This document shows positions 22,812 to 27,013 of a DNA stretch of 64,000 nt, one piece after another. The first letter of the stretch is position 1; the number at the start of each line of letters is the position of its first letter. Position numbers and translations under genes: made by a program. Where the stretch lies: positions 7,102,001 to 7,166,000 of the forward strand of contig NZ_CP022203.1 in the NCBI RefSeq assembly GCF_002305895.1. Direction: 5' to 3'. Source of the DNA: Corallococcus macrosporus DSM 14697 (lineage in GTDB: Bacteria; Myxococcota; Myxococcia; Myxococcales; Myxococcaceae). Under the pieces are notes generated by a model, which saw only the letters and a list, made by a program, of their open reading frames with translations, ran no database searches and had not been told where the DNA came from.

Positions 22812-24143
22812 ATGAGCACGACACCGCACCACACGTCCGCCCCGCGCCTCTTCGACGTGGCCCTGCCCGACCTCACGCTGGAGGCGGGCGCCCGCGTCAC
22901 GAACCACCTCGTCCGAGGCTGGTGGTGGGGCCCCGAGGACGACGTGCCCTGGCTCCAGTCCCGCGCGAGCGTCCTGTCCGAGGACGACGCCCAGGCGAGC
23001 CCACCGCGCGTCGTGCGCCGCGGCGTGGCCGAGTGGCAGGCGCTGGCGGCCCAAGCCCGCCAACGGGCCCCCGCGCGCGCGCCTCCGGCCGTGCCCACGG
23101 TGCTGCTGGTCCACGCGCTCACCGGCGACATGCGCGCGGGTGGCAAGGGCGGCTGGTGGGAGCCGCTCATCGGCCCGCGGCGCGCGCTGGACCCGTCCCG
23201 CATGCGGCTGCTCTGCTTCAACAACCTGGGCTCCTGCTATGGCACCTCGGGCCCGGCCGACGAGGGCTTCCCCATGCGGACGGACGACGCGCGCTTCGGC
23301 GCGCCACCGCCGGCGGCCAAGGGCGACCTGCGCCTGGACGAGGAGCGCCTGCCAGCCACCGTCACCCCGTGGGACCAGGCGCGGAGCATCCTGCTGGCCA
23401 TGGACGCGCTGGGTCTGGACGAGGTGGAGCTCGTCACCGGCGGCTCGCTGGGCGGCATGGTGGTGCTCTGCCTCGCGGCGCTCGCGCCGGAGCGCTTCGC
23501 GCGCCTGTCCCCCATCGCCACGACGGAGTCCGCCACCGCGTGGGTGGTGGGCCTCAACCACGTGGCGCGGCAGGCGCTGCTGATGGCCCCGGGCTTCCCC
23601 GAGGCTCCCCGCCGCGGCCTGGAGCTGGCCCGGCAGCTCGCGATGCTCACCTACCGCGCGGAGCCCGGCCTGGAGGCGCTCCAGGGCCGCCCCGAGGCGT
23701 GGTCCTCCCGCGCGCTGCACCCCATGCACAGCTACCTGGAGTACCAGGGCCAGAAGCTGGAGGCCCGCTTCGACGCGCGCGCGTACCTGGCGCAGCTCGG
23801 CGCCATGGACCACCACGACTTGTCACGTTTCCCGGGGGGCGGCCTGGCCCGCATCCGCGCGAGCGCGCTGTGCGTGGGCATCGACACCGACCAGCTCTTC
23901 TTCCCCAGCCACATGGCGGCGCTGGCCCGGCGGCTGCGCGAGCGCGGCGTCCACGCCGAGCACGCCACGCTGTCCAGCCTCCACGGCCATGACGGCTTCC
24001 TGCTGGAGTGGGACGCCCTGGCCGTCCTGCTGGGGCGGGCGCTCGCCCTGCCCACGGACCGGGGACTGGCGCACGCCTTCCCGCGCTGGCCGGAGGCGTC
24101 CGCGCGCGCCGCCCTCAGCCCACCTTCCGGGACGAAGGCGTGA
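22812..24143 (+). CDS. Homoserine O-acetyltransferase family alpha/beta hydrolase (MetX-like)
   Basis: 443-residue alpha/beta-hydrolase of the homoserine acyltransferase family. MetX-type landmarks are LVHALTGDMRAGGKGGWWEPLIGPRRALD (start of fold), CFNNLGSCYGTSGPADEG, the nucleophile elbow GGSLGG (Ser212), and the acid and base in GIDTDQLFFP and LHGHDGFL. Classical MetX is about 350-380 residues; an N-terminal extension of roughly 90 residues and altered spelling of GSCYGT make substrate assignment uncertain. It may acylate homoserine for methionine synthesis or act on another hydroxyl compound. A 228-base leader precedes it, in which I see no riboswitch consensus. Its end overlaps the converging channel gene by 29 bases. 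Confidence 0.82.
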   Translation: MSTTPHHTSAPRLFDVALPDLTLEAGARVTNHLVRGWWWGPEDDVPWLQSRASVLSEDDAQASPPRVVRRGVAEWQALAAQARQRAPARAPPAVPTVLLVHALTGDMRAGGKGGWWEPLIGPRRALDPSRMRLLCFNNLGSCYGTSGPADEGFPMRTDDARFGAPPPAAKGDLRLDEERLPATVTPWDQARSILLAMDALGLDEVELVTGGSLGGMVVLCLAALAPERFARLSPIATTESATAWVVGLNHVARQALLMAPGFPEAPRRGLELARQLAMLTYRAEPGLEALQGRPEAWSSRALHPMHSYLEYQGQKLEARFDARAYLAQLGAMDHHDLSRFPGGGLARIRASALCVGIDTDQLFFPSHMAALARRLRERGVHAEHATLSSLHGHDGFLLEWDALAVLLGRALALPTDRGLAHAFPRWPEASARAALSPPSGTKA

Positions 24144-25215
24144 CCACGGGCACCGGCTCATGGTGCGACCACAGCGGCGGCTCCGCCTCGTGGGTGAAGG
24201 CGCGCATCCGCCGGTACTCCGGATAGGACGCCTGGAGCGACAGCACGTCTCCGGCCCGGATGACCTCGTCACCGGCCGGGTGGAGCCGCTCCTCGCCATG
24301 GCGCTGGAGCGACAGCGCCAGGCAGCCGAACCTGTCCCGCACCTCGGAGATGGTGAGGCCCGGCAGGCCCTCGCGCGCCTCGAACAGCGAGACGACCATC
24401 AGGTGCTTGGCCAGGTGGAAGGAGTGGACGATGCGCGGGTCCATGGCCGCCAGCGCCATGGCCGGGGCCGCCAGCGACGAGCTGGAGAGCGCCTCCGCCT
24501 TGAACGTCTCCCGCACCTTGCCGCTCAGGTCATCGTCGAAGAGGCGGATGACCACGCGGATGTCCGGGTTGAGCTTGCGCGCGTCCAGGGCGATGTTGAG
24601 GTTGGCCAGGTCGTCATCCGTGGCGCAGACGATGGCGGACGCGTCCTTCACGTTGGTGCGCGGAAGGCACAGCGGGCTGCGCGTGTCGTCGATGAGCAGC
24701 GGCACCAGCTCGTCACGCAGCGCGGACACGAAGGCCGCGTCCTCGCGCTTCTCCACCACCACCACGTCCTTGCCCATCTCCCGGAGCTGCGTCACCACGC
24801 GGTAACCCACGCGCCCGGCGCCACACACCACGACGTGGCCCTTCATCGTCTCGGAGACCACTTCAATCCACTCCTTGTCGTTCTTGTGACGGGCGAAGAA
24901 GAGGTAGGCGAAGCGCACCACACCATCCGCCACCAGGGCAATGCCCGCGGGCGGAATCACCAGGTTGAGCAGCTCCAACAGCCAGTCGTCCACGTAGGGC
25001 AGCGACGGCTCGCCGTAGAGCAGGAAGTAGGTGTGGTGCAGCGCCTCGCCGAAGTCGATGCGCTCGCCACCCGGCCCCCGGAAGCGCCAGTGGAAGAGCA
25101 CCGGCGCCCCCAGGAACAGCACCGCGGAGAGCACCAGCGTGGTGCGGAAGCGCCGCACCAGCGCCCGCAGGTAGCGCAGATTGGCCCAGAAGTGCCGGCG
25201 GGACGGCTTCATCAT
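24115..25215 (-). CDS. Two-helix ion channel-like protein with TrkA-N/TrkA-C (RCK) domains
   Basis: 366-residue membrane protein. Two hydrophobic segments (about 24-42 and 79-106) flank a pore-helix-like stretch; a Rossmann RCK domain follows with VVVCGAGRVGYRV (about 128-140) and the acidic end of strand two in VVVVEKRED, and a TrkA-C-like domain (GLPGLTISEVRDRFG... to RAGDVLSLQ) closes it. The pore loop reads YFLLYGEPSLPY and lacks a recognisable TVGYG filter. A GAGGAG ribosome site precedes 25215/25212. It is the third gene of the tatB-tatC operon, 10 bases after tatC. Confidence 0.85.
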   Translation of the reverse strand: MMKPSRRHFWANLRYLRALVRRFRTTLVLSAVLFLGAPVLFHWRFRGPGGERIDFGEALHHTYFLLYGEPSLPYVDDWLLELLNLVIPPAGIALVADGVVRFAYLFFARHKNDKEWIEVVSETMKGHVVVCGAGRVGYRVVTQLREMGKDVVVVEKREDAAFVSALRDELVPLLIDDTRSPLCLPRTNVKDASAIVCATDDDLANLNIALDARKLNPDIRVVIRLFDDDLSGKVRETFKAEALSSSSLAAPAMALAAMDPRIVHSFHLAKHLMVVSLFEAREGLPGLTISEVRDRFGCLALSLQRHGEERLHPAGDEVIRAGDVLSLQASYPEYRRMRAFTHEAEPPLWSHHEPVPVVTPSSRKVG

Positions 25216-25225
25216 TGCTCCTCGA

Positions 25226-26455
25226 CTACGACGCCGGGGTGATGCCCGTCTCCGCTTCGTTCTTCGCGCGCCGCCGCTCCACCATCCACACCAGCAGCAC
25301 GCCCAGCTCGTAGCAGAGCAGCATGGGGCCGGCCATCAGCGACAGGTTCACCACGTCCCCGGTGGGGGTGATGATGGCCGCCGCGATGAGGCACACCACG
25401 AAGGCGTGGCGCTGGTACTTGAAGAGCCAGGACGACTTCACCACGCCCACCACGCCCAGCAGCGCCATGACGAGCGGCAGCTCGAAGATGACGCCGAAGG
25501 CGAGGATGAGCAGCAGCACCAGCGAGAGCTGCTCGTGCATGGACAGCATGGGCCGCGTCCACCGCGCCGCCTCGTGCGCCGCGTGCGCCGTGGCCAGCTC
25601 CTTCTCCAGCCGCCACAGCCCCGCCAGCTCCTCCGAGCGCGTGGGCGCGATGCCCGCCAGCAGGCTGGCCGAGCCATCCATGGCCGCCGCCGCCGCCGCG
25701 AAGTCCTTCTTCTCGAAGGCCGTCACGGCATCCACGCGCTTCTCCAGCGCCTGCCGCAGCACGCCGCGAGCCTGCGCGCCGTAGCCCACTGACGCCGCGT
25801 CCAGCAGCCGTCCCAGGCCGTCCAGCCGCCCCGTCATCTCCACGCTGGCGGCGGGCGCGACCTCCGGCGCGGGCGCCTGCCCCGCGCCGTCGGCGCGCAG
25901 CGTGGTGCTCGTCTCCTTGGCGATGCGGCCGGCCTCCTCCGCCTCGCCCAGGCGCAGGAAGCGCAGGGCGTCATCCGCGCGCAGCCGGGCCGTGTCCAGG
26001 CGCTGCTCCAGCGCCAGCGTCTCCTCCTCGTTGAGGAGGAAGGTGAACATGGAGGGCAGCACCGCGAAGTAGCAGAAGGCGGCGCCCACGAGGAAGGCGA
26101 TGGAGCCGAACGCCACGAAGGGCGCGGCGAAGCGGCGCTCCTCCGGGTACAGGCCGGGCGACACGAAGCCCCAGATCTGCATCAGGATGACGGGCGTGGT
26201 GAGGAAGATGCCGCAGTACACGCCCACCTTCATCAGGACGTTCAGCTCTTCGATGCCGGACGTGTAGATGAGCGCGCGGTTCTCCGGCGGCAGCGCGTCC
26301 AGCACCGGCTGCATCAAGAGGCCGAAGATCGGCTTGGCGAAGACGAGCGAGACCGTCCCCAGGACGAGCACCGCGATGGTGCACCGCATGAGGCGCGTGC
26401 GGAGCTCCGTCAGGTGCTCCGCCAGACTCATGCGAAAGTCAGCGTCGGGGTTCAT
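25226..26455 (-). CDS. tatC: Sec-independent protein translocase TatC with large periplasmic insertion
   Basis: 409-residue polytopic receptor of the twin-arginine translocase, against about 250-260 residues in most bacteria. Family marks: MSLAEHLTELRTRLMRC at the N-terminus, GFVSPGLYPEERRF in the first cytoplasmic loop, AYF-like FCYFAVLPSMFTFLL ending helix 3, and LAFGVIFELPLVM for helix 4 with the conserved Glu. Between helices 3 and 4 (residues about 142-303) lies an Ala/Glu-rich, mostly helical insertion of about 145 residues, which by TatC topology faces the periplasm. It is encoded 18 bases after tatB. No tatA is seen here. Confidence 0.95.
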   Translation of the reverse strand: MNPDADFRMSLAEHLTELRTRLMRCTIAVLVLGTVSLVFAKPIFGLLMQPVLDALPPENRALIYTSGIEELNVLMKVGVYCGIFLTTPVILMQIWGFVSPGLYPEERRFAAPFVAFGSIAFLVGAAFCYFAVLPSMFTFLLNEEETLALEQRLDTARLRADDALRFLRLGEAEEAGRIAKETSTTLRADGAGQAPAPEVAPAASVEMTGRLDGLGRLLDAASVGYGAQARGVLRQALEKRVDAVTAFEKKDFAAAAAAMDGSASLLAGIAPTRSEELAGLWRLEKELATAHAAHEAARWTRPMLSMHEQLSLVLLLILAFGVIFELPLVMALLGVVGVVKSSWLFKYQRHAFVVCLIAAAIITPTGDVVNLSLMAGPMLLCYELGVLLVWMVERRRAKNEAETGITPAS

Positions 26456-26473: not shown

Positions 26474-27013
26474 TCAGCTCCGTTTCGGGGCGTTGCGCGC
26501 CACCGTCCCCGGGAGGGGTGACAACGTGGGCGTGGTGGCGGAGGGAGCAGCAGGCTCCGGGGGCACCTCGGCGGCGGCCTCCGCGGCCGGCTCCGGGGAC
26601 GCCGCGTCCGCGGCGGACACCTCGCGAGGCCCCTGCGCGTCCAGCTCCAGCACCTGCGTGGAGGACGAAGGCGAGCCCGCGTCCGGGGGCGAGGCCGCGT
26701 CCGGCGGCGAGCCCGCGTCCGAGGGCGGCGCCGCGCCGTCCGTGGCGGGAGCGTCCGGCGCCCCCAGCGACGACGGCGGCTGGGGCGCGAAGCGCGTCCC
26801 CGGCCGGACAGGCGCGGAAGGAGGCTCACCGATTTCCTGGTCCATGGCGTAGAACTCGCGCTCCACGACGTTGCGGACCTCATCCGTCTGGCGGCGGAAC
26901 TCACGCAGGAACTTGCCGATGCCGCGCGCCAGCTCCGGCAACCGCTGCGGCCCGAGAATGAGCAGCGCGGCCACCAGGATGAACACCATTTCGCCTGCGC
27001 CGATGTTGAACAT
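26474..27013 (-). CDS. tatB: Sec-independent protein translocase TatB
   Basis: 179-residue Tat component. The N-terminus MFNIGAGEMVFILVAALLILGPQRLPELARGIGKF is a short membrane helix, Gly-Pro hinge and amphipathic helix as in TatA/B; Glu8 and the following long charged helix with QTDEVRNVVEREF favour TatB. The C-terminal half is a Pro/Ala/Ser-rich low-complexity tail containing repeats of SPPDA, probably disordered. Start at 27013 has a perfect AGGAAAA site before it. First gene of tatB-tatC-channel. Confidence 0.92.
   Translation of the reverse strand: MFNIGAGEMVFILVAALLILGPQRLPELARGIGKFLREFRRQTDEVRNVVEREFYAMDQEIGEPPSAPVRPGTRFAPQPPSSLGAPDAPATDGAAPPSDAGSPPDAASPPDAGSPSSSTQVLELDAQGPREVSAADAASPEPAAEAAAEVPPEPAAPSATTPTLSPLPGTVARNAPKRS

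Follow-up and report, generated by a model that had tools for sequence, protein, structure and literature searches.

What does a long extra domain do in the middle of TatC, in the core of the twin-arginine translocation (Tat) system? This question is raised by a 64,000-nucleotide stretch of the genome of Corallococcus macrosporus DSM 14697 (contig NZ_CP022203.1, positions 7,102,001 to 7,166,000; hereafter the window), whose tatC gene encodes 154 additional residues between transmembrane helices (TM) 3 and 4. The insert corresponds to the periplasmic domain already published for TatC of the Myxococcus type. The best explanation overall, which we consider probable, is that this trimeric domain staples the TatBC core together and closes the TatC cup. 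Earlier publications already cover the observation itself, its structure and one implication for the mechanism; the distribution of the insert in Myxococcota, with the single gain it suggests, is the only addition beyond published work.

The tatC gene lies on the minus strand and encodes 409 residues from the ATG at window position 26455 to the stop at 25226. A preliminary description of this DNA had the coordinates 25226-26455 right, to which the minus strand has to be added. The protein was matched by the TatC profiles PF00902 (208.2 bits, cut-off 25.1) and TIGR00945 (184.4 bits, cut-off 132.7). The PF00902 match is split by the insert: profile positions 1-132 fall on residues 13-147, and the remainder lies beyond the insert. 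In a profile search of the genome, the two halves (1-132 and 133-208) were found in one open frame with no stops, both above the cut-off. The same search detected no second TatC, so that the window gene is single copy and encodes the sole TatC of the 8.97 Mb genome.

The extra part of the second periplasmic loop comprises residues 146-299 (25559..26020, minus strand) when compared with relatives lacking the long loop. Its length of 154 residues is the excess over 43 loci with an ordinary loop, which have 2-6 residues at that place. The preliminary description had noticed a long second periplasmic loop between TM3 and TM4, which is confirmed, and had put the insertion at 145 residues, which is slightly short. 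Alanine (24%), leucine (13%), arginine (10%) and glutamate (9%) lead its composition. The GC content at third codon positions (GC3) of the insert is 0.96, and its substitutions relative to Myxococcus xanthus number 6/5/21 at codon positions 1/2/3. Because of this GC3 value and the concentration of changes at third positions, the insert is coding sequence. A frame shift, chance or an assembly artefact was ruled out, because 93 genomes share the same insert and it is also present in a solved structure.

The long TatC loop of M. xanthus has been in print since 2012, with 183 residues by the boundaries of those authors against only 19 in Escherichia coli (PMC3712464). Deme et al. (Nat Microbiol 2026; PMC13323110), in their passages on M. 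xanthus, state that this species was chosen for its large periplasmic insert, which was solved alone (9E0S, crystal) and in the TatBC complex (9E03, cryo-electron microscopy). In both, they describe the insert as an ordered homotrimer, which covers the periplasmic face and gives the TatC copies additional contacts with one another.

We compared the window protein with these structures. A phmmer search against the PDB matched 9E03_A over residues 9-409, insert included (E 1.7e-243), and 9E0S_A over residues 134-312 (E 5.8e-102). The whole periplasmic domain (residues 134-313; 25517..26056, minus strand) was modelled with AlphaFold2 from 14 sequences as a monomer only, with a mean predicted local distance difference test score (pLDDT) of 85 and a predicted template modelling score (pTM) of 0.80. 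The model is nearly all helix, which bears out the helical insertion predicted in the preliminary description; helices occupy model residues 2-35, 39-57, 70-115, 119-134 and 138-166, followed by the start of TM4. It superposes on 9E03 with Z 25.1 and on 9E0S with Z 24.1 (template modelling score on the query, TMq, 0.81-0.83), and the Foldseek match to the solved M. xanthus insert has E 3.5e-17. By this model, the insert subunit shares the 9E0S fold.

The M. xanthus TatC is thus the same protein, with the same loop, the same insert at the same length and the same predicted subunit fold. Its orthologue in our survey (L084) is 94% identical in the insert and 95% in the core, which are the small differences of another Myxococcus species. 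The nearest relatives of the window sequence are indeed Myxococcus, with M. xanthus 94% identical over the protein and about 91% in the surrounding DNA. The window insert is almost certainly the same domain, and by analogy with its close relative it would almost certainly form the same trimer.

In the proposed mechanism, an all-helical domain would run out of TM3, fold over the periplasmic face and re-enter at TM4. It would form a homotrimer with the inserts of two other TatC copies, as seen in M. xanthus, and this trimer may act as a staple that holds the (TatBC)3 core in one piece. The insert would also keep the TatC cup closed on its periplasmic side, with transport taking place at the outer edge. 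Whether Tat substrates pass through a central pore is a question for which the insert offers a ready-made test. Where an ordered lid covers the centre of the TatC trimer throughout a clade, transport at the edge is a better fit than central transport, as has been argued already: Deme et al. reason in the same passages that a central exit would be blocked by the M. xanthus insert and that substrates cross at the periphery of the core complex (PMC13323110), and a 2026 review makes the same point on the trimer and the central exit (PMC13186574).

We then explored the distribution of the insert with a profile search of 174 genomes of this one phylum, Myxococcota, 160 of which have TatC. The insert was present in all 93 TatC-bearing genomes of Myxococcaceae (f1) and three sister families of the same order (f7, f8 and f9), and in 0/67 of the others, including five families of the same order (f2-f6) and one of the same class (f10). 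Weak matches to the insert profile in G147 (only 18 residues leading into TM4) and G078 (E 0.007) are not the insert. The 85 locus entries that were measured fall into two sharp groups, with 142-165 or 2-6 extra residues and no intermediates. In a tree of the TatC core built without the insert, all 30 carriers lie on one side of a branch (support 98/94, under midpoint rooting only). This fits a single gain before f9 split from the remaining carriers. The lineage specificity suggested in the preliminary description was borne out by this pattern. Presence of the insert in most TatC would have spoken against it, and within the phylum 67 of the 160 TatC-bearing genomes, covering every family but four, are without the insert. 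The alignment across Myxococcota that it recommended for finding where the insert begins points to the ancestor of f1 and f7-f9. The lid is thus no peculiarity of a single species: it seems to have been acquired once, long ago, and retained in all the TatC-bearing genomes of the clade that were sampled.

Seven genomes of these families gave no TatC match (G066, G071, G078, G101, G106 and G118 of f1, and G142 of f8) despite completeness of 89-100%. An assembly gap is likelier than loss, as several of them consist of hundreds of contigs, but this is less clear for G078 (80 contigs) and G142 (30 contigs). Another record, L073 (BNCN01000001.1), is titled Comamonas sp. KCTC 72670, and its tatC is 93% identical to that of the window, with 6.6 kb of DNA 90% identical. 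From the sequence it looks like a mislabelled Myxococcus.

Selection on the insert was estimated by the ratio of non-synonymous to synonymous substitution rates (dN/dS). This ratio is below 1 in the insert, and a few positions are near-invariant across the carriers. The strongest conservation is at the junction TRPMLSM-EQLS, which is partly common to relatives without the long loop. The rate and the near-invariant positions would fit a structural part under loose constraint. We also considered that the insert compensates for the lost TatB-contacting glutamine (E. coli Q215), and rejected it because the same TPTGDPFNL motif without the glutamine occurs in relatives without the insert.

Several points weigh against a stapling trimer. 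Change is faster in the insert than in the core (dN/dS 0.19-0.59 against 0.09-0.39; identity to M. xanthus 94% against 95-97%), and in the farthest carriers the identity of the insert falls to 21-30%, against 54-68% in the core, a low value for an interface on which much depends. The E. coli complex, whose TatC (9DZZ) has the same core fold and (TatBC)3 architecture, trimerises without the M. xanthus-type insert, and so does the complex of Nitratifractor salsuginis (9E02). The TatC of the latter also has a large periplasmic insert, but that one is unrelated, sits in another loop and lacks order in the complex (PMC13323110). We came across no mutant in which the insert is deleted or its interface altered, the M. 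xanthus passages of that paper being concerned with purification and structure, so that the stapling role is inferred from the structure alone. Whether stapling is a needed function is about evenly balanced.

The faster evolution of the insert could also be expected of an ornament that the cell can do without: it would have been gained a single time, tolerated as the centre of the periplasmic face is off the transport path, and kept by inertia. The argument that transport occurs at the complex's edge (PMC13323110, in the passages cited above) agrees with this, as does the fact that the nearest relatives of the same order manage without the insert. However, no loss was seen in 93 genomes, including small ones of 2.1-3.0 Mb (g22, g43), the length is held at 142-165 residues without intermediates, and both the dN/dS below 1 and the near-invariant residues indicate constraint. 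We regard an ornament as somewhat unlikely. Another idea is that the common ancestor of Myxococcaceae and the three sister families acquired, a single time, a helical domain without recognised outside origin in its Tat core, and that this domain became an essential clade-specific lid or stabiliser, so that the Tat system of this clade depends on a part others lack; this seems rather doubtful.

It is unlikely that the insert, in addition to forming the trimer, is a platform on which a partner protein or ligand in the periplasm docks or is sensed. Its weak fold matches do include the periplasmic ligand-binding four-helix domains of chemoreceptors (Z about 5), but this level is expected of unrelated helical bundles, and no partner is known. 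Sulphate located on a crystal axis commonly comes from the buffer, which also counts against the platform. A role in guiding substrate or TatA is still less probable. The preliminary description had proposed a tuning of the translocase by an insertion lying where TatA/B and signal peptides approach, and substitutions in loops P1 and P2 of E. coli TatC do inactivate transport (PMC3712464). In the solved M. xanthus complex, however, the inserts contact each other over the TatC trimer instead, and in the E. coli structures the signal peptides contact TatC and are clamped by TatB, as described in the structural passages of Deme et al. That M. xanthus complex was solved without substrate or TatA, which leaves room for contacts during transport (PMC13323110); we are aware of no M. 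xanthus complex with a bound substrate. The published trimer that would staple the core and close the cup remains our preferred explanation for the window insert.

The origin of the domain was sought by sequence and by fold. Sequence searches with the insert gave no convincing relative outside TatC, and a weak match does not prove that there was no origin. The best match elsewhere in this genome had E 0.04, and no paralogue of the insert was detected there. Outside TatC, the fold relatives are generic helical bundles only (Z <=7.1, Foldseek E >=0.34), which is no proof of a unique fold. No Pfam name for the insert was reproducible; PTS_IIA appeared in 2/40 members (best E 0.00055) and DUF7595 in 5 members (best 0.022).

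The first half of the TatC core, TM1-TM3 (residues 9-145; 26021..26431, minus strand), contains HLTELRTR and carries the PF00902 match at profile positions 1-132. The second half, TM4-TM6 (residues 300-398; 25262..25558, minus strand), begins with TRPMLSMHEQLSLV and carries profile positions 133-208 in the genome search. A second in-frame ATG lies at 26431 (codon 9, MSLAEHL). Because the M. xanthus protein of 9E03 aligns from residue 9 onward, the true start may be this one, eight codons inside the ATG at 26455. Directly upstream, 18 bp before tatC on the same strand, is tatB (26474..27013, minus strand; 179 residues with Glu8), which scores 47.8 bits with PF02416 and 51.4 bits with TIGR01410 (tatB), slightly below the cut-off of 56.5. 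This is the usual arrangement of Gram-negative Tat operons. A major facilitator superfamily (MFS) transporter precedes tatB and a TrkA-N protein follows tatC, and relatives of both also flank the M. xanthus tatC. The latter protein (24115-25215, minus strand), directly after tatC, has 366 residues with TrkA-N and TrkA-C domains and hydrophobic N-terminal stretches, and a relative of it lies near tatC in many Myxococcaceae.

A different insert was observed in family f16. The TatC proteins of its genomes G013, G014 and G015 (about 380-400 residues) have an unrelated insert of about 130 residues in periplasmic loop 1, which joins TM1 to TM2, and their second loop is ordinary. The genes lie at L060:2449-3591 (+), L061:2482-3651 (+), L062 and L063. 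Pfam gave no match to this first-loop insert, and among solved structures no sequence relative was convincing, the best being the histidine kinase 8pdc (E 0.12). It shows alternating strand-like and helix-like stretches, the copies are 44-50% identical to one another, and G014 carries two tatC genes of this type.
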